64,000 nt of DNA, taken from Candidatus Nitrosomaritimum khambatensis (GTDB taxonomy: Archaea; Thermoproteota; Nitrososphaeria; Nitrososphaerales; Nitrosopumilaceae). The DNA lies in assembly GCA_011773785.1 (NCBI GenBank), contig WVWY01000026.1, forward strand, positions 4,521-68,520, written 5' to 3'. This document shows positions 4,056 through 63,863 of this stretch, piece after piece. The number at the start of each line of letters is the position of its first letter. The first letter of the stretch is position 1. The notes beneath the pieces were generated by a model, which was not told where the DNA came from, searched no databases, and was given only the letters and a program-made list of their open reading frames with translations. The position numbers and the translations under genes were made by a program.

Positions 4056-4280
4056 ATGTTCCTTGCAAATATCAGCAATTTCATTGCAGGTCAAGAGTGG
4101 ATATTTATCATAATAATTGTCGCAGTCTTGATTTTTGGAGCAAAAAAGATTCCAGAGCTAGCCAAGACCTTTGGAAAAGCCAAAGGGGAATTTGAAAAAG
4201 GAAAAATTGAAGGAGAAAAGGAACTCAAGGATTTCAAAGAGAAGGCTTCTGACGTCAACAAGGAATCAAAATCTGACTAA
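4056..4280 (+). CDS. tatA: Twin-arginine translocase TatA-like
   Basis: TM helix plus FGAKKIPELAKTFGKAKGEFEKG. Confidence 0.93.
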   Translation: MFLANISNFIAGQEWIFIIIIVAVLIFGAKKIPELAKTFGKAKGEFEKGKIEGEKELKDFKEKASDVNKESKSD

Positions 4281-4705
4281 TTTTCGGCATTTTCAATTAA
4301 TTTATCCATAATTTTAGAGAATTCATTTTCTACATCCCCTTTACCAAAAAGACCAGAGAATCTCATAGAACCCTTGTACTTAAAATCCACAGTTAAGGTG
4401 ATTTTAGTTCCCTCAGGAAATTGTTCATATTTTTCAGTAATGTGAGTTCCTTTTGCATCACCCCCAACAAAAAAAGTTTCATGAAGTAATGGTTTTTCAA
4501 TTACATGTTTTTGCATTACAACAAATTCCTTTCCTGATAAAATTAGATGCGCCTCTACAAGAGTTGTAGTAGGTCGAACAGAAATTATTCTTACAGAAGG
4601 ATAAAATTCTGAAAGAAGTTTTTGAAAGGATTCGTAATTAGTTGCAACATCAAAAAATTGGTCGCGTGAAAGTTTTGTAAATTTCTCAAATGTTACTGCC
4701 GTCAA
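4277..4705 (-). CDS. SRPBCC/polyketide cyclase-like protein
   Basis: START/SRPBCC pattern. Confidence 0.65.
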   Translation of the reverse strand: MTAVTFEKFTKLSRDQFFDVATNYESFQKLLSEFYPSVRIISVRPTTTLVEAHLILSGKEFVVMQKHVIEKPLLHETFFVGGDAKGTHITEKYEQFPEGTKITLTVDFKYKGSMRFSGLFGKGDVENEFSKIMDKLIENAEN

Positions 4706-4712
4706 TTATCAT

Positions 4713-5270
4713 TTAGAAGGTACCCCATCGAGGGTATAAATTGTGCTCCAAATCAAATTGGTCCAAACACTTTCCAACTCCATGATTAATTACATCATCA
4801 AGGGTTTTAGGTTTTGTATAAAACTCTGTGACAGGTGGTAAAATAACTACACCAATACGAGAAAGTTTTAACATATTTTCAAGATGTATTGCTGACAAGG
4901 GGGTTTCTCGCACCATCAAAATTAATTTTCTTGATTCTTTTATTGTAACACCTGCTGCACGTGCCACCAAAGTATCATCATACCCATTTGCAATTGCAGA
5001 CAGTGTCTTCATACTACAAGGCGCAACAATCATTCCATCTACTTTATGGGTACCACTTGATACACTTGAAGCCATGTTTTTCTCATCAGATGAATTTGAT
5101 GCAAGCGACTTTACATAATCAACAGTATGCTCAGTTTCCATCTCAATACATTTTTCTCCCCACTCTGACATTATCAGATGAGTTTCAACTCCTAATTTTT
5201 TTAAGGTCTCAAGCATTCTAATTCCGTAAATTACTCCAGTGCTTCCAGTAATTCCAATAATTAGTCGCAT
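4713..5270 (-). CDS. ubiX: UbiX-family flavin prenyltransferase
   Basis: IIGITGSTGVIYGIRML, VAPCSMKTLSAIANG, LMVRETPLSAIHL, LPPVTEFYTKP. Confidence 0.93.
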   Translation of the reverse strand: MRLIIGITGSTGVIYGIRMLETLKKLGVETHLIMSEWGEKCIEMETEHTVDYVKSLASNSSDEKNMASSVSSGTHKVDGMIVAPCSMKTLSAIANGYDDTLVARAAGVTIKESRKLILMVRETPLSAIHLENMLKLSRIGVVILPPVTEFYTKPKTLDDVINHGVGKCLDQFDLEHNLYPRWGTF

Positions 5271-7028: not shown

Positions 7029-7289
7029 ATGGTTAGAAGCATCTTCATTAAAGAAATCATTACCATTCTAAAAGAACCTAGATTATGTCCTACCTGCAAT
7101 AAAGAAGACAGATTAGAGAAAGACATCATTAATGAAAATCGATCCTGTGGAAAAACTATTCTTTGTTCTCGTTGTGAGGCATTAATTGTTGTTACCAATC
7201 AAAATTTGCGGACGGTTGAGTTATCTGCCTCTGAGGACATTTCGATCATGCTCAAAGAGCCCCATTTAATAAGAAAAGTTACGTATTGA
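7029..7289 (+). CDS. Small putative zinc-binding protein
   Basis: CPTCNKED...CGKTILCSRCEA. Confidence 0.6.
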   Translation: MVRSIFIKEIITILKEPRLCPTCNKEDRLEKDIINENRSCGKTILCSRCEALIVVTNQNLRTVELSASEDISIMLKEPHLIRKVTY

Positions 7290-7319
7290 TCAACCAATAT
7301 ATCATAGAAAAAAATTATT

Positions 7320-7382
7320 TTGATGCTGATGATTAGATAAGCTACGTTGTCTGAAAGATGATGATTTTGCCGAATTATGAAG
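7320..7382 (+). ncRNA. Candidate C/D-box sRNA
   Basis: TGATGA (C-like), CTGA (D', 7351-7354), ATGATGA (C', 7358-7364), 12-nt spacer, degenerate ATGA (D, 7377-7380). Confidence 0.42.
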
Positions 7383-7444
7383 CGTTATTTCTTTTACAAT
7401 ATTACTTGATTGTACAAAACTCTACATAGAAGCAAAATTTTCTT

Positions 7445-8023
7445 TTGGCATTGGCAAACTCTGAAACCCTTGCAAAAGCAATAGAATTTGCTCATAAAAA
7501 ACATCAACACCAAAAACGACCAGACGGAATAACTCCTTTTGTAGACCATCTAGAAGGAGTAGTAAACAGATTAAAAAATATAGGAATTGCTAATCAGAAT
7601 ATTCTCTCAGCTGCTTGGTTGCATGATACAATTGAAAAAACAGACACAACTTTTGAGGAAGTTGATAGTATTTTTGGAAATACAATTTCTGTACTTGTAC
7701 TATCATTGACCAAGGATAAAAATCTGCCAAAAAAGAAACAAGAGATTCAATACATTAATCAATTAAAAAATGCATCAAAAGATTCAAAAATTATTAAACT
7801 GTGTGATGCATCTTCAAACATTAAGGACATTGCAAAAGCTCCAATTTCAAGAAATCAAAAAAACAAAAAGGTAAGGAAAATATTTCATTATATTCGAGTC
7901 ATGAAAAAAGATCTCATTGAGGCTAAAGAAAGATATCCCAAAATTCAAGAATTAATTGACGGTATCAATTCAGTAGGTAAAGAGTTTAGACTAAGACCCA
8001 TAATCTTAGAAAATAAATCATAG
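7445..8023 (+). CDS. HD-domain hydrolase, SpoT/MESH1-like
   Basis: AIEFAHKKHQHQKRPDGITPFVDHLEGV...AAWLHDTIEKTDTTFEEV. Confidence 0.85.
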   Translation: MALANSETLAKAIEFAHKKHQHQKRPDGITPFVDHLEGVVNRLKNIGIANQNILSAAWLHDTIEKTDTTFEEVDSIFGNTISVLVLSLTKDKNLPKKKQEIQYINQLKNASKDSKIIKLCDASSNIKDIAKAPISRNQKNKKVRKIFHYIRVMKKDLIEAKERYPKIQELIDGINSVGKEFRLRPIILENKS

Positions 8024-8075
8024 CCATTTCATTCAAATACAAAATTTTAAGTAAAAAATTAAAATTAAATTTCTA

Positions 8076-52753: not shown

Positions 52754-52954
52754 TTAGGTTTCTAATTTTTGTCTTTTGCCTCGAGCTTTAGTTCTTAAAA
52801 CTGCCTTACAACATACGCATCGAATACTTTCTGTTGTTAAAAAGAGCCCACAAAAAGTACAACGCTTCTGTCCAAGTTCGTATCTTACCCTGTTTGGAAC
52901 AGGTTCTGCTTTGTGCATTTGGCATATTCCTCTACATGTTCTTCCCACTACCAT
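52754..52954 (-). CDS. Small zinc-ribbon protein in the TFB operon
   Basis: KRCTFCGLFLTTESIRCVCCKAVLR; start overlaps TFB stop. Confidence 0.65.
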   Translation of the reverse strand: MVVGRTCRGICQMHKAEPVPNRVRYELGQKRCTFCGLFLTTESIRCVCCKAVLRTKARGKRQKLET

Positions 52955-53850
52955 TCACCTCCTATTTTTTTTCTAATTTCTTTTGACCTATCTCTGATGG
53001 TCACAGAACTAATTCCCGAAATCTCGGAAATTTTTAATTGAGAAATTTTTTCGTTATTCCTAACAGAAGCCAAGTTAACAACTGCAGCTGCCATGGACAT
53101 AGGATTTTTACTGGTACTAATTCCAGCATCCAAAACCCTACTCATTAAACGGATGGCATCCATTCGAGTTTTCTTGCCAACTCCAACGTCATTTAGAACT
53201 CTTTCTACAAAATCTGCTGGACTGTAGGTTTCTGGAGTAATATCTAGTTCATTTACCAAAAATCGATAGTTCTTTTGGAGATTTTTACGCTTGATATTGC
53301 CTGCATCTGCTATGTCCTGTAAAGTTCTGGGAGTTCCAGTTATCCTGCAAGCAAGATATACAGTGGCACATAAAATTCCAGCAGTAGAACGTCCGCTTAG
53401 TATTTTTTTTCCAGCAGCCTTTCTAAATATGTGTGCAGATTTTTCGACAACAGATTCTGGTAGTCCTAATTTGGCACGTATTCCGTCTAGTAAGGAAAAT
53501 GCCTTGTTAAAAGACTTGTATTCTTGTTTTGATTTACTGTTTCTATCCCATAATCTTAATCGATAAAAAATTTTTGAATTTTCAGTAGAGAGACTTTTTC
53601 CAGTAGAATCCTTGTTAGATTGTTGGATAACAGTAGATAGTCCCATATCAGACATTTTCAAGGTAAGTTTTGTTCCGACTCTGGTGTTTGATTCATACTC
53701 CTCTTTTGTGAACCCAGTTTGTTCAGGACCAATATCGATTGCTTTTTCCAAAATCACAGATCCGCAGGTTCCGCAGGCAATCTCTCCAGTATTGAAATCA
53801 GTTATTGGAGAAAGATTTTTGCAATATTGGGAATGAATCACAGACATCAT
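52948..53850 (-). CDS. tfb: Transcription initiation factor IIB paralog
   Basis: Zn ribbon CKN...IACGTCGSVI; two cyclin repeats (AGILCATVYLACRITGTPRTLQDIADAGNIKRKNLQKNYRFL; AAAVVNLASV...KISEISGISSVTIRDRSKEI). Confidence 0.93.
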   Translation of the reverse strand: MMSVIHSQYCKNLSPITDFNTGEIACGTCGSVILEKAIDIGPEQTGFTKEEYESNTRVGTKLTLKMSDMGLSTVIQQSNKDSTGKSLSTENSKIFYRLRLWDRNSKSKQEYKSFNKAFSLLDGIRAKLGLPESVVEKSAHIFRKAAGKKILSGRSTAGILCATVYLACRITGTPRTLQDIADAGNIKRKNLQKNYRFLVNELDITPETYSPADFVERVLNDVGVGKKTRMDAIRLMSRVLDAGISTSKNPMSMAAAVVNLASVRNNEKISQLKISEISGISSVTIRDRSKEIRKKIGGEW

Positions 53851-54070: not shown

Positions 54071-54108
54071 ATATTTAAGATGGTGGTAAATTTGGTTACT
54101 AGTGCTAA
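54071..54108 (-). promoter_or_regulatory. P1: duplicated element and TATA box upstream of the TFB operon
   Basis: Minus-strand sense TTAGCACTA (54100-54108), TTACCACCA (54081-54089), then TCTTAAATATC; 19-bp spacing. Confidence 0.7.
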
Positions 54109-55889: not shown

Positions 55890-55927
55890 TAGGCACTAGG
55901 ATATAATTTTACCACCTGTTAAATATC
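55890..55927 (+). promoter_or_regulatory. P5: duplicated element and TATA box upstream of DUF523-DUF1722 gene
   Basis: TAGGCACTAG (55890), TTACCACCT (55909-55917), GTTAAATATC; 19-bp spacing; ATG about 26 bp after the TATA box. Confidence 0.7.
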
Positions 55928-55947: not shown

Positions 55948-56913
55948 ATGACAAAATCAGTCAAACCCATACTAGGAATCAGCAAATGTCTTGAATTTGA
56001 TAACTGCCGATACGATGGAAAAATTATTGGTAATGATTTTGTTAGAAAACTAAAAAGTCATGTTGACTTTATTCCTGTTTGTCCAGAGATGGGTATAGGT
56101 TTAGGAAGTCCAAGACAACCTATTAGATTAGTTAGGATTAAAGGCAAAAAGAATTTGTACCAACCCTCAACTGATGAAAATTTGACTCAAAAAATGGAAG
56201 ATTTTTCCAACAAATTTTTCGAAGACCTTGAGGAGATTGATGGCTTTATTCTAAAACATTCATCACCAACTTGTGGTGTGCGTAATGTCCGACTGTATCA
56301 CAAAATTGGAAAACAGGTTGGATTTGATCAAACCGTAGGCATGTTTACAGAATTGCTTAGTAAGAGATTCCCATATTTAGTAATAGAAGATGAGGCAAGA
56401 CTACGAAATTCTGTATTGAAAGATTCCTTTTTGACCAGGGTTTTTACAATGGCGAGATTAAGAAATTCCCTATCTTCAAAAGATGAAACTATACAATTCT
56501 TCAAGGATAATGAAATGTTGTTTATGTGTTATGATAAAAATAGTTCCAAAAAACTAATGGATTTGCTATCTTCAAAACCCGAGGAATTAGAAGAAAAGGA
56601 CAAGATAATTCAACTAGTCTATAATTTATTAAATAGAATTCCAAATTCTGATTCATTATTTGGCACCTATCAATACATTTTGTCTATGTTTTATGATAGA
56701 TTAACCATTCCCGAAAAGGATTATTTCAATGCAACAATGTCAGGATTCTCTGCAGGTAATGTCATGCCTTCAGAAATTTCCACTTTATTGTATTCATGTG
56801 CCTTGAGATTTGATGTGAAATCGATATTGTCCCAGACAATCTTTGAACCTTATCCAAAGGAATTGGTGCAAAATAATTCAGAACGAAGGGAATACTCCCT
56901 ATTGAAAATATAA
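55948..56913 (+). CDS. DUF523-DUF1722 (YbgA-like) fusion protein
   Basis: PILGISKCLEFDNCRYDGKI...FIPVCPEMGIGLGSPRQPIRLV...FILKHSSPTCGVRNVRLY; C-terminal region resembles the neighbouring gene. Confidence 0.85.
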   Translation: MTKSVKPILGISKCLEFDNCRYDGKIIGNDFVRKLKSHVDFIPVCPEMGIGLGSPRQPIRLVRIKGKKNLYQPSTDENLTQKMEDFSNKFFEDLEEIDGFILKHSSPTCGVRNVRLYHKIGKQVGFDQTVGMFTELLSKRFPYLVIEDEARLRNSVLKDSFLTRVFTMARLRNSLSSKDETIQFFKDNEMLFMCYDKNSSKKLMDLLSSKPEELEEKDKIIQLVYNLLNRIPNSDSLFGTYQYILSMFYDRLTIPEKDYFNATMSGFSAGNVMPSEISTLLYSCALRFDVKSILSQTIFEPYPKELVQNNSERREYSLLKI

Positions 56914-57620: not shown

Positions 57621-57660
57621 ATTATATTTAATGGGGGCTAACTTTTTCTTCTAGTGCTAA
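57621..57660 (-). promoter_or_regulatory. P6: duplicated element and TATA box upstream of the membrane protein
   Basis: Minus-strand sense TTAGCACTAG (distal 57652-57660), TTAGCCCCC (57633-57641), ATTAAATATAAT; 19-bp spacing. Confidence 0.65.
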
Positions 57661-57712: not shown

Positions 57713-59092
57713 TTAAATTGGTTTTCCTTTGTATTGGTAATCAATCACTTTGTGAAAGAGATTATGAGAAGCAATTATACCTATTACGGTAAGTGCTATT
57801 CCCACAAAATTTCTTATTATGATTACGGTACTAGGATCTCCAGCAATCAGAGACATTTGGAATGCCACATAGAAATTATCAAACAGCCAAAAAGCCATTG
57901 TGACCCACGTTAAGATTCCTGCCATCAAATAACCTAATCTTGTTTTGTTATAGACAAATAGAATAGAGAATCCAATTGTAAGATACCAAATCCCAGAGGC
58001 TAAAAGCCATAGAGGTTCATAAACTTCGGGTCTATTGTCCAACCAATAATAGGTGCTTCCGCATATACCATAAGCAAATAGACTTACCAACAAAATTTTT
58101 TGGTTGATTTTGAAACCAGTTTTTTCTTCTCTTTTGTTCATTTTTGGTGGATTGGTATTGATTTCTTTAGTGGCAATTTCTATTGCCTCTCTAACGGATT
58201 TTAGTTTAATTGGAATTATTTTTTTGATATCGTTATTTCTTACCACAGTATCATGAACAAGACTATCAATTAGAGGTCTTGCTAAGGAAGCTTTTACAGG
58301 TGTAATTAGGTCTACCCAATAAGAGGACAATCTGGTTGTCAGAAATGGAATTTGAATAACAAAAAGATTTTTGTTCAAATAGGCCGAATAGTCTCTCATT
58401 AATTCTTCATAGGTCATTTTGTCTGGGCCTCCAATATCATAGATCTTGCCAGAAGTTTCTGGATGCTCAAAACAACCAACTAAATATTCCACAACATCAT
58501 CCACAGCTATGGGTTGTGCTAATGATTTTACCCATGAAGGACATACCATTACTCTTAATCTTTCTACAAGGTATCTCAACATTGCATAAGAACCTCCTTG
58601 AGCTCCGATAATTATCGAAGCTCGTAATTCAGTCACAGGAATAGAGCCTGATGATAAAATCTCACCTACTTGTTTTCGGCTTTGCATGTGTGGAGATAAT
58701 TCATCACCCTCGTTAATCAAACCTCCAAGATAGATTATTCTTTTAACTCCAGCTTTTGTAGCTGCGGAAAGAAAGTTTTTGGCTTGAACTTTTTCTCGAG
58801 ATGCAAAATCTTCCCATTCTTCCTTGCTTCCCTCCATCGAATGCAGTAAATAGTAAGCTACATCTGTTCCCTCTAATGCAGTAGTAAGATTATCTACATC
58901 AAAAACATCTGCTTTTACAAATTTAACATAAGGCTGGTCTGGTATCTCTCTTCGGGACATTCCTTTTACTTTAATGCCCATACTCGCAAATTTCTCAACA
59001 AGTCTTGATCCAATAAATCCCGTTGCGCCAGTTACAATAATAGAGTAGGGCCGATTTTCGGCGACCACATCACTATCTGCCTTTTGAGACAT
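57713..59092 (-). CDS. SDR/NAD-epimerase with C-terminal TM domain
   Basis: IIVTGATGFIGSRLVEKFASMGIKVKGMSRR; C-terminal 3-4 TM segments. Confidence 0.85.
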   Translation of the reverse strand: MSQKADSDVVAENRPYSIIVTGATGFIGSRLVEKFASMGIKVKGMSRREIPDQPYVKFVKADVFDVDNLTTALEGTDVAYYLLHSMEGSKEEWEDFASREKVQAKNFLSAATKAGVKRIIYLGGLINEGDELSPHMQSRKQVGEILSSGSIPVTELRASIIIGAQGGSYAMLRYLVERLRVMVCPSWVKSLAQPIAVDDVVEYLVGCFEHPETSGKIYDIGGPDKMTYEELMRDYSAYLNKNLFVIQIPFLTTRLSSYWVDLITPVKASLARPLIDSLVHDTVVRNNDIKKIIPIKLKSVREAIEIATKEINTNPPKMNKREEKTGFKINQKILLVSLFAYGICGSTYYWLDNRPEVYEPLWLLASGIWYLTIGFSILFVYNKTRLGYLMAGILTWVTMAFWLFDNFYVAFQMSLIAGDPSTVIIIRNFVGIALTVIGIIASHNLFHKVIDYQYKGKPI

Positions 59093-59415: not shown

Positions 59416-59452
59416 TATTTAAAATGGTGCCAATATTTTTTACTAGTGGTAA
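59416..59452 (-). promoter_or_regulatory. P7: duplicated element and TATA box upstream of the membrane protein-SDR operon
   Basis: Minus-strand sense TTACCACTAG (59444-59452), TTGGCACCA (59425-59433), TTTTAAATAAAA; 19-bp spacing. Confidence 0.7.
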
Positions 59453-59500
59453 ATAGAACAGTCATGAAATGATTTAATCAATGACAAAAAGGTAATATTT

Positions 59501-59538
59501 TTGGCACTAGATGGATAATTTGGCATTAAATATATACC
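59501..59538 (+). promoter_or_regulatory. P8: duplicated element and TATA box upstream of the CarH-like gene
   Basis: TTGGCACTAG (59501), TTGGCATTA (59520-59528), TAAATATATACC; 19-bp spacing. Confidence 0.7.
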
Positions 59539-59561: not shown

Positions 59562-60404
59562 ATGGTATACATCAGGGCTAAAAAAATTAAAGGCGACCAA
59601 TATCTCTACCTTGTTAAAAGTGTCTGGGACAAGCAAAAAAACACCTCAAGGCAAGAGATTGTCAAGTATCTTGGGAAGGCAGCTGATGTTCTGAAAGACG
59701 ATATACCTCCTGATTACAGAAATGATCCAAAGATCATTTCATTTTTGGCATCCCACAATCCTGAGAATATGGCCAAAAAAGAGGAGGCCAGGAAAAAGAC
59801 AAAAGAGCAGCTTTACAAAAAATTTACTCAAGGAGATATCAAGTCATCTTTGAAAACTTATGAAGATTATGTAAAATTATTCAATTCTGCAGATTTTTTT
59901 GATAAAATTTTACGTCCAGTCATGTACTTGATTGGAGAGAATTGGGCCAATAACAAAATCAGTATAGCCACTGAACATGTAGCCTCTAATGTTGCCCAGG
60001 GACTTGTTAAAATTATAATGGATAGAAATCAGGGAGAATCAAATAAGAAAAAGATACTTGTTTGCGTTCCACAAGGAGAAGAACATAGGTTAGGATGCGA
60101 TGTTCTAGAAACTTATCTCAGTTCAAAAGGATTCAAAGTTTACAATTTAGCAAATTCGGCTCCAAATGAATCTATTATCAGTTTTATTGAAACTGCAAAG
60201 CCAGACGTTGTTTTTGTCTCAATAACATTAGAGGACAACATAAAGCCTGGTCAAAGGCTGGTACGGAAAATCACAGAGGCATACCAAATTCCAATTTTTG
60301 TGGGAGGTTTTGCCTTACAATCTGAAAAAACCCCAAAATTTGAGGCTACTGTTCTAAAAGACACATCCTTAGAACATTTACCCAGATTAATCAGAGCAGC
60401 ATAG
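59562..60404 (+). CDS. CarH/LitR-type B12-binding photoreceptor-like protein with non-MerR N-terminus
   Basis: Four-helix cobalamin cap ILRPVMYLIGENWANNKISIATEHVAS (Wx9EH) and Rossmann B12 domain GEEHRLGCDVLETYLSSKGFKVYNL (ExHxxG); N-terminus MVYIRAKKIKGDQYLYLVKSVWDKQKNTSRQEIVKYLGKA. Track start 59511 lies upstream of the predicted TATA box. Confidence 0.85.
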   Translation: MVYIRAKKIKGDQYLYLVKSVWDKQKNTSRQEIVKYLGKAADVLKDDIPPDYRNDPKIISFLASHNPENMAKKEEARKKTKEQLYKKFTQGDIKSSLKTYEDYVKLFNSADFFDKILRPVMYLIGENWANNKISIATEHVASNVAQGLVKIIMDRNQGESNKKKILVCVPQGEEHRLGCDVLETYLSSKGFKVYNLANSAPNESIISFIETAKPDVVFVSITLEDNIKPGQRLVRKITEAYQIPIFVGGFALQSEKTPKFEATVLKDTSLEHLPRLIRAA

Positions 60405-60405
60405 T

Positions 60406-61758
60406 CTAGTTAATAATTGGTTTTTGTTGTCTCAGGTATTCGAGTATTTTTGGAAGACACAGAATTGAACTATGCGCAGCCGAATCGGTTCCGATTCCAT
60501 AACTTACAGTAGAGTCCCCAACGAAGAAAAGACCATCTATTCCGTTTACCTTGTGTGGCATTTTTGATTTCCATACTTTTCCTGGTTTCTTGACAACTGA
60601 TTCCACCAGACTCCATCCCATTGGCCTTTCCCAAAGTAAGGAACTTTTGAAATCCGGATAGATTGCGTTTATTTCTTCTTTCATTTTTTCTACAGTTTCA
60701 CGTATTTTTTGGGGGCTTTTCACATATTGTGGAGGTACAGGTGTTCCTGTAATTATCAAATGCTCCCCTTTAGGTGAAACTTTTGGAGTCATATTAGAAA
60801 TGAAAAAAATTCCCTTTGCAGTATATTTTTCTCCAACAGGAAAAACAACATGACGAGTATCTAATTTTTTAGATAAAGCAAAATGTACTTCAATAACGGC
60901 AGTGGTATCATTTAGATTATCAATTTTTTTTAAAAATTTTTGATCAAAAACTTCCTTATCAAATAACTGCTTAAGAGCTTGGTATGCAGGATATGAAATA
61001 ACAATACAATTAGTCTCTATGAAATTACCTTTATTATCAATAAATCCAGTAACCTGGTTGTTTTCAATTAGGATTTTTTTTATGCTGCTATTAAGCAAAA
61101 TTGAATTTCCTTTTGATTGAATGTAATTTGAAAGGATTTGAGAAATTTTATCATAACCTCCATCAGAAGGATATGCAAATTCGCTAGTACCGCCTTTGAA
61201 TGGATTAGCCCTAATTATTGTTCTTGCAAATTCACCCAAGGAAATGTTTTTGGCGCTATCAGCAAATGCCAACATGCAAACTGCTTCAAAAAAGGCATTA
61301 GTTTTCTCATCTAAATTTTTGGTAATATCAACAAGAGAGGTGTCATCCCAAGATTCCGTTTTTTCAATCGATGAAAATGCAAGAGGTAAAAGAATTCTTA
61401 ACAAAGCAAGCCTGCTTTTTAATGGAACCATAGACAATTTCAGAAGATCTAGTATGCCCTTTGGATAGATATGAAAAGAATCGTCAGAATAAAATGCAAT
61501 ATCATCAACTCTACCTAGTTTTAATTGAGATTCGATTCCAATTTTCTTGAGAATTTGATAAATCGCTGATTGAGTGTAAAATGGCATAATATGAAACCCG
61601 TTATCTAAAATGTGATTTTTGTAGGTGATTGATGCAGTCCTTCCACCAACTTTACCATATTTTTCATATGTTGTGGTCCTAATACCCTCTTTTGCCAAGA
61701 GAGCAGCCATAGTTAAACCTCCTACACCTGCACCAATTATTGTGACATTTTGTGTCAT
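60406..61758 (-). CDS. CrtI-like phytoene desaturase/FAD amine-oxidase-family protein
   Basis: VTIIGAGVGGLTMAALLAKEGIRTTTYEKYGKVGGRTAS...DGLFFVGDSTVSYGIGTDSAAHS. Confidence 0.82.
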   Translation of the reverse strand: MTQNVTIIGAGVGGLTMAALLAKEGIRTTTYEKYGKVGGRTASITYKNHILDNGFHIMPFYTQSAIYQILKKIGIESQLKLGRVDDIAFYSDDSFHIYPKGILDLLKLSMVPLKSRLALLRILLPLAFSSIEKTESWDDTSLVDITKNLDEKTNAFFEAVCMLAFADSAKNISLGEFARTIIRANPFKGGTSEFAYPSDGGYDKISQILSNYIQSKGNSILLNSSIKKILIENNQVTGFIDNKGNFIETNCIVISYPAYQALKQLFDKEVFDQKFLKKIDNLNDTTAVIEVHFALSKKLDTRHVVFPVGEKYTAKGIFFISNMTPKVSPKGEHLIITGTPVPPQYVKSPQKIRETVEKMKEEINAIYPDFKSSLLWERPMGWSLVESVVKKPGKVWKSKMPHKVNGIDGLFFVGDSTVSYGIGTDSAAHSSILCLPKILEYLRQQKPIIN

Positions 61759-61778: not shown

Positions 61779-61817
61779 GATATTTATCTTGCTGGCATCA
61801 TAATAATCTAGTGCTAA
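61779..61817 (-). promoter_or_regulatory. P9: duplicated element and TATA box upstream of CrtI-like gene
   Basis: Minus-strand sense TTAGCACTAG (61809-61817), ATGCCAGCA (61790-61798), AGATAAATATC; 19-bp spacing. Confidence 0.65.
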
Positions 61818-62857: not shown

Positions 62858-62895
62858 GATATTTAACTAATGCCAACCAAAATTGATAGTGCCAA
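62858..62895 (-). promoter_or_regulatory. P10: duplicated element and TATA box upstream of the zinc-ribbon operon
   Basis: Minus-strand sense TTGGCACTA (62887-62895), TTGGCATTA (62868-62876), GTTAAATATC; 19-bp spacing. Confidence 0.7.
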
Positions 62896-63317: not shown

Positions 63318-63863
63318 CTATTGAATGCGGAATTTCTGTCCTAAAGTTTTTCCCATTAATTGCAAAGCATATCTACACACATTTGGGGTTAGGGTGAAAA
63401 ATCCTCTGAAATTTCCATCCTCATATTCCTCAGCAATTAAGCCAAATGGCCCATAAGGTCCTCGAGTAATCACACTCCAAACATTTACCAGGTTTGTGTT
63501 CTTGCAGTTAATTACTTCAATTTTATCAGGAGTTTTGATTTGTGTTTTGCCATAATTTGCAATGACCCAAACTTTAGGTATATTTTCAATCATTTTTTGA
63601 TATCTTTTTTCTACAAATTTGTAACGAGCTATTTCCTCGAAGGTAGCAAGAAGTGGCTCACCATTATCTTGTGCGTATTTTTCTATTAATTTGCTCAAAT
63701 TGTAAAGAGGTTTCCTTTCAGAATGAAAATTATGATACCCTTTTTCAATAAATTTATCTAACTTCCATAGTGGTAAGATAGAATTATCAAGATCATGCCA
63801 TTCGGCAAGTTGAGGAAATTGTTCCCATACAGAGGCCACAAAACCAGAATATGGAGTTACCAT
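63318..63863 (-). CDS. Conserved protein, possibly DICT-like sensory domain
   Basis: PLLATFEEIARYKFVEKRYQKMIENIPKVWVIANYGK...PYGPFGLIAEEYEDGNFRGFFTLTP. Confidence 0.4.
   Translation of the reverse strand: MVTPYSGFVASVWEQFPQLAEWHDLDNSILPLWKLDKFIEKGYHNFHSERKPLYNLSKLIEKYAQDNGEPLLATFEEIARYKFVEKRYQKMIENIPKVWVIANYGKTQIKTPDKIEVINCKNTNLVNVWSVITRGPYGPFGLIAEEYEDGNFRGFFTLTPNVCRYALQLMGKTLGQKFRIQ

Follow-up and report, generated by a model that had tools for sequence, protein, structure and literature searches.

What would a CarH-like cobalamin sensor use to find its promoters if it has no MerR domain? This question is posed by the gene for a 280-residue B12-sensor regulator at 59562..60404 (+) of the window, the 64,000-nucleotide stretch of archaeal DNA analyzed here. 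Light-sensitive and cobalamin-producing, ammonia-oxidizing archaea abound in the sea. The answer that we favor, with a probability of roughly 0.55, is that the protein is an AdoCbl-based light-sensing transcription regulator of these archaea and their relatives, with an N-terminal sheet that reads a 19-bp repeat to form a block that light releases.

The open reading frame, its homologues, and its Pfam domains together delimit the gene. Every homologue begins at the position equivalent to 59562, where the starts in many genomes read M/L-V/A-Y/F-I/L/V-R, and we therefore take 59562 as the true start; the alternative at 59511, which opens the longest frame, was discarded. The 40-residue N-terminus quoted in the first-pass annotation is indeed encoded at 59562-59681 (+), in frame with the ORF ending at 60404. 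Because full-length homologues (30-79% identity) span the whole archaeal order, this is not a chance ORF. In a sample of 398 genomes from the phylum, such homologues are common in the window's own family and occur in two further families of the same order. None was found elsewhere in that sample, the more distant matches covering only the B12 part and lying, in many cases, in frames of methionine-synthase length. Further Nitrosopumilaceae and Nitrososphaerales loci came from scanning GTDB representatives; no relative of the full-length sensor was found among viral contigs.

Along the 280 residues, the order of parts is N-domain, cobalamin cap, and Rossmann B12 domain. Pfam recognizes B12-binding_2 at residues 82-151 (8.8e-09) and B12-binding at residues 164-250 (2e-12), and returns nothing above its cut-offs for residues 1-63; matches to UvrD and to a response-regulator family fell under the cut-off and were discarded. 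The NCBIfam CarH model NF052513 aligns with residues 77-268 only, leaving the MerR third of the model unmatched, from which we conclude that the sensor part is CarH-like and the MerR part absent. Between the N-domain and the cap lie connecting helices (residues 50-81; 59709..59804, +), seen in the model and, in the alignment, variable in both sequence and length.

The CarH-type cobalamin sensor occupies residues 82-252. Its four-helix cap (residues 82-156; 59805..60029, +; PF02607) carries the signature motifs G125xxW128 and E138H139, and its Rossmann B12-binding domain (residues 163-252; 60048..60317, +; PF02310), which Foldseek matches to CarH and the photocobilins, carries G172xxH175, with H175 as the predicted lower axial ligand, and A197xxxP201. 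Sequence and fold searches of the PDB likewise group this C-terminal part with photocobilins, CtMerR, and CarH. The signature of light-responsive cobalamin domains, as formulated in SignatureFinder, consists of GxxW, EH, GxxH, and GxxxP (PMC11796333). The first three motifs are complete in 32 of 34 aligned members, the window protein included, and the proline of GxxxP is kept in those same 32; the two exceptions are paralogues without the W and the EH. The glycine of GxxxP is more variable: it is Ala in the window protein, Gly in six members (L010, L013, L015, L022, L030, L050), and some other residue elsewhere, the Pro being kept.

A residue of known importance in CarH is missing throughout. 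The position following W128, which corresponds to H132 of CarH, is Ala129 in the window protein and is His in none of the 34 aligned members. In CarH, H132 is required for bis-His ligation and monomerization, the H132A mutant staying largely tetrameric in light (PMC10442372). CtMerR, SasPcob, and AbDPcob are nevertheless photoactive without an equivalent His (PMC11796333). Given this precedent, the sequence makes a light response plausible, with an output step that may differ from that of CarH.

A sensor paralogue (41% identity) lies past the window, at 83244-84411 of contig C12 (L002, L092). It has lost GxxW and EH while keeping GxxH, its promoter is without the 19-bp repeat, and it is followed by a separate 111-residue ORF that encodes a second, stand-alone cap domain. 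The L059 genome contains a similarly degenerate sensor paralogue.

The N-domain itself comprises residues 1-49 (59562..59708, +) and is a three-stranded antiparallel sheet. AlphaFold2, supplied with 31 homologues, places strands at residues 2-9, 12-23, and 28-39, together with a short helix, with a mean pLDDT of 91.5, and a model of the full-length protein agrees. Eleven of the 49 positions are invariant (R5, K7, Y14, L17, V18, W22, Q31, Y36, L37, G38, and P49), and the composition is basic, with 11 K/R against 6 D/E. This is, moreover, the best-conserved region of the protein, the mean frequency of the majority residue being 0.74, as opposed to 0.56 in the cap and 0.62 in the Rossmann domain. 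The first-pass annotation had described a non-MerR N-terminus that might be a new or domesticated DNA-binding domain. Its non-MerR character is borne out: there is no MerR match, residues 2-39 are all-beta in the model, and the resulting beta-meander matches no known family in Pfam, NCBIfam, or PHROGs, nor, significantly, any PDB sequence. Foldseek found nothing at E<=0.001 in the PDB or among viral models, a sheet this small giving weak partial matches only. With no significant nucleic-acid-binding neighbor in the PDB, the structure is neutral on DNA binding. Searches of plasmids and phages by tblastn returned chance-level matches only. The domain also occurs by itself, as a 74-residue ORF in another family of the same order (L058, 2753-2977), where it adjoins SDR and membrane-protein genes and has a TTAGCACTAG half-site upstream.

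Where else, then, is this module found? Over 300 genomes, the matches of an N-domain profile beyond its own family are chiefly N-termini of IS1634-type transposases (7e-9, 1e-6, 5e-5, and 3e-3, all in one genome and assigned through NF033559 matches at the same places) and of Fic proteins (1.5e-4 to 0.02). Profile-profile comparison by hhalign relates the photoreceptor N-domains to archaeal IS1634 N-termini at 98.4%, to bacterial ones at 96.5% (score 48.1), and to those of Fic proteins at 95.5%; the bacterial set was taken from plasmids and picked by whole-protein similarity, with the N-terminus ignored. Among 200 column-shuffled profiles, the best scores were 17.6 for bacterial IS1634 and 19.7 for Fic. 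A second comparison with IS1634 N-termini gave 98.2% (E 3.3e-14). The resemblance to such transposases that the first-pass annotation pointed out is genuine profile homology, upheld by shuffle controls. A joint profile also recovers zinc-ribbon and stand-alone proteins with the module.

It is a different matter to call the domain transposase-derived, as the first-pass annotation did. Capture from an IS1634 transposase, a claim about origin that is compatible with our reading of function, would fit the significant homology to both archaeal and bacterial N-termini. Pfam detects no DDE transposase domain in the sensor, where IS1634 transposases have PF01609. In a poorly resolved tree of 55 columns, the photoreceptor copies group as a single clade (98/81), with no nesting among the transposases. 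Because the module also heads Fic, zinc-ribbon, and stand-alone proteins, and because the photoreceptor copies stand as a clade of their own, a transposase origin is not established, and we consider it unlikely. The Fic-domain proteins with the N-terminal beta-meander module are in L155, L156, L157, L158, L176, L177, L180, and L183; L178 and L179, from other families of the phylum, are short proteins in which a CPxCG zinc ribbon is joined to it.

A candidate operator lies directly in front of the gene. The 19-bp-spaced element to which the first-pass annotation referred is present, as TTTGGCACTAGATGGATA at 59500 and TTTGGCATTAAATATATA at 59519, and it constitutes an operator-like direct repeat, TTGGCACTA-N10-TTGGCATTA (59501..59528, +; exact match, score 30.0), which abuts the TATA box 33 bp before the photoreceptor ATG. 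Most genes of the island have a copy upstream. Three more exact copies occur nearby: one serving the divergent small-ORF and SDR genes (59425..59452, -; score 26.2), one 30 bp before a 67-residue ORF that leads the TFB gene (54081..54108, -; score 27.5), and one 29 bp before the gene of a 59-residue zinc-ribbon protein (62868..62895, -; score 31.6). Weaker copies, each with 2 mismatches, stand 30 bp before the RudS (TudS-DUF1722) gene (55890..55917, +; score 14.2), 30 bp before the gene of a 192-residue DUF1440-like membrane protein (57633..57660, -; score 22.3), and 31 bp before the FAD oxidoreductase gene (61790..61817, -; score 13.8), the last of these sites being kept before the orthologue in L184-L187. 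A weight matrix built with the window's own site withheld gives 12 sites in a 75-kb stretch and 0 in the reversed sequence. When the whole 1.37-Mb genome is scanned with fixed patterns, all 4 exact matches fall within 9 kb, in the sensor island, and 6 of the 7 matches with <=1 mismatch fall within 17 kb.

The repeat is also deeply conserved. Of 53 regions upstream of photoreceptor homologues, 40 contain the form TTRSCAYYA-N10-TTRSCAYYA; it stops 28-34 bp short of the start codon in 39 of these and runs directly into a TATA-like TTAAATA. Some of the remaining regions show, by eye, near-variants with a spacing of 18 or 20. All 37 genomes with the photoreceptor gene contain a stricter form (G or T after a first half of TTRSCACTA, <=1 mismatch overall, a filter set after viewing the sites, with match lists compiled by hand), as do 0 of 28 without it, the gene-less genomes being >=96% complete, although these counts are not independent, since the genomes are related. 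Joint loss of the whole island would give the same pattern of co-occurrence. Sixty of the 109 strict-form sites lie away from the photoreceptor gene's own promoter region, and across relatives the repeat precedes orthologues of the sensor, the SDR, the FAD oxidoreductase, a PNPOx-like protein, a secreted protein family, and others, regulon members being conserved across genera. Indirect support for DNA binding comes from the deep conservation of the repeat, its place at the promoters of both the sensor gene and neighboring genes, and its co-occurrence with the sensor gene.

The genes around the sensor speak of defense against UV and light. Near it are RudS, comprising a 2-thiouracil desulfurase and DUF1722 (55948..56913, +; PF04463, PF08349), a lone DUF1722 protein, and a TFB. 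The divergent neighbor encodes an SDR/NmrA-like NAD(P)-binding membrane protein (57713..59092, -) and the convergent one an FAD-dependent oxidoreductase resembling amine oxidases and phytoene desaturases (60406..61758, -; PF01593, 1.7e-27), both in conserved synteny; the SDR and sensor genes adjoin across families, divergently in one and co-directionally in another. Downstream of the sensor gene by ~7-8 kb, and just outside the window, is the assembly's only photolyase; beyond it come UvdE, a MEDS protein, and a degenerate sensor paralogue. RudS has been linked to light operons in bacteria (PMC11417400), and the Pseudomonas light cluster under class II LitR control contains the genes of photolyase, SDR, FAD oxidoreductase, and RudS (PMC9758184, PMC11417400), a set that the sensor island resembles. 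Two TFB genes flank the island, at 52948-53850 (-) of the window and at 4115-5008 (+) of L173. An exact copy of the repeat precedes one of these TFB genes, which hints at a TFB switch upon illumination. L173 also encodes, at 7251-8024 (-), a WelO5-like protein of the 2OG-Fe(II) oxygenase/halogenase type, whose gene lies immediately upstream of that for photolyase, in the same orientation. A conserved protein at 63318-63863 (-) of the window and at 4618-5205 of L092 is a recurrent neighbor of the sensor or its paralogue, and its family has a 19-bp element of its own in relatives.

In the mechanism that we propose, the C-terminal two thirds would sense light as CarH and the photocobilins do, with AdoCbl held from below by H175 and capped by W128, E138, and H139. 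The AdoCbl-loaded dark sensor would be a head-to-tail dimer or higher assembly, whose N-terminal three-stranded sheets would read TTRSCAYYA-N10-TTRSCAYYA with one repeat to each protomer. TBP/TFB would then be blocked in the dark at the sensor's own promoter and at those of the SDR, FAD oxidoreductase, TFB, RudS, and other light-stress genes, a block suggested by the promoter-proximal repeat lying against or over BRE/TATA. The dark role of the sensor is, in other words, probably repression. Green or blue light would break the Co-C bond and change the assembly state, and with photolysis of AdoCbl the block would be released.

Some findings count against this explanation. The N-domain is also carried by Fic enzymes, for which one would not expect DNA binding, and it has no significant fold match with a DNA-binding protein; another island protein could read the repeat instead. 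The same findings would also fit a light sensor whose N-domain binds a partner, be it TFB, a zinc-ribbon protein, or RNA polymerase, the partner then reading the 19-bp repeat, and the regulon does include both a TFB gene and a zinc-ribbon gene. Such an arrangement nonetheless strikes us as doubtful, given that the rest of the sensor has no known DNA-reading part, that the module is basic and heads DDE transposases, and that the repeat tracks the sensor gene even in families with different neighboring genes.

The absence of the H132 that CarH requires, and the Ala in GxxxP, count against a light-released repressor as well. A protein with no His after W128 in any member might be no photoreceptor at all, the N-domain binding DNA and the C-terminal part sensing cobalamin level or redox state, as the failure of CarH H132A to monomerize to any great extent in light might suggest (PMC10442372). 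Here, too, the photoactivity of CtMerR, SasPcob, and AbDPcob without that His (PMC11796333) speaks to the contrary, as does an island rich in light-repair genes, the only photolyase included, and we regard this reading as improbable. The sign of regulation might also be the reverse, the sensor binding just upstream of BRE/TATA and recruiting TBP/TFB by a contact that light alters. Such a position is typical of archaeal activators, and the repeat does lie upstream of the transcription start, not over it, at a constant distance to the TATA box. The proximal repeat extends into the TATA box, however, and CarH/LitR AdoCbl sensors are DNA-bound in the dark and released in light, which for an activator would switch off the light-repair genes when they are needed. 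We thus hold an activator to be unlikely and retain repression relieved by light.

In the open-access literature searched, we met no report of an archaeal B12 light receptor. What is new here is an N-domain absent from the catalogues and an undescribed 19-bp-repeat regulon. More broadly, and at slightly less than even odds, an uncatalogued and widely shared beta-meander DNA-reading domain may serve IS1634 transposases in locating DNA and, in an archaeal AdoCbl light receptor, bind 19-bp direct repeats at archaeal TATA boxes. If so, this B12 light-control system would be the first described for archaea, and ammonia oxidizers would have a light regulon. Defining the sensor, its operator, and its gene set would open the light response of ammonia-oxidizing archaea to direct tests, supply a new green-light switch with archaeal promoter logic, and put a name to a domain for which the libraries searched describe no role in either IS1634 transposases or Fic proteins.

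Among known systems, CarH/LitR proteins share with the sensor a four-helix cap and Rossmann B12 domain, the W-x9-EH and ExHxxG motifs, light-stress neighbors, and a direct-repeat element at the promoter. The sensor differs from them in having an N-terminal beta-meander in place of the MerR domain, in lacking an H132 equivalent, and in a candidate operator composed of a 9-bp repeat at 19-bp spacing in an archaeal promoter context. The best reading is of a protein that works like CarH and is not a CarH member, since both the MerR domain and H132 are absent. CtMerR and the photocobilins (PDB 8JBS, 8J2W, 8J2Y) are, with CarH, its best structural and profile matches and, like the sensor, lack H132, yet are photoactive; CtMerR has a MerR domain, the photocobilins have a bilin domain and in some cases enzyme outputs, and neither has the N-domain described here. 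The IS1634-family transposases (NF033559) have a homologous N-terminal module of about 45 residues, but the sensor is without their DDE domain and its clade stands apart from the transposase copies, while archaeal Fic proteins join a homologous module to a Fic catalytic domain and have no B12 domain. The closest parallel in gene content is the class II LitR regulon of Pseudomonas, which, like the sensor island, brings together SDR, FAD oxidoreductase, photolyase, and RudS in one light cluster; unlike the sensor, class II LitR carries an HTH domain, and in Pseudomonas mendocina its control runs through a LOV protein.
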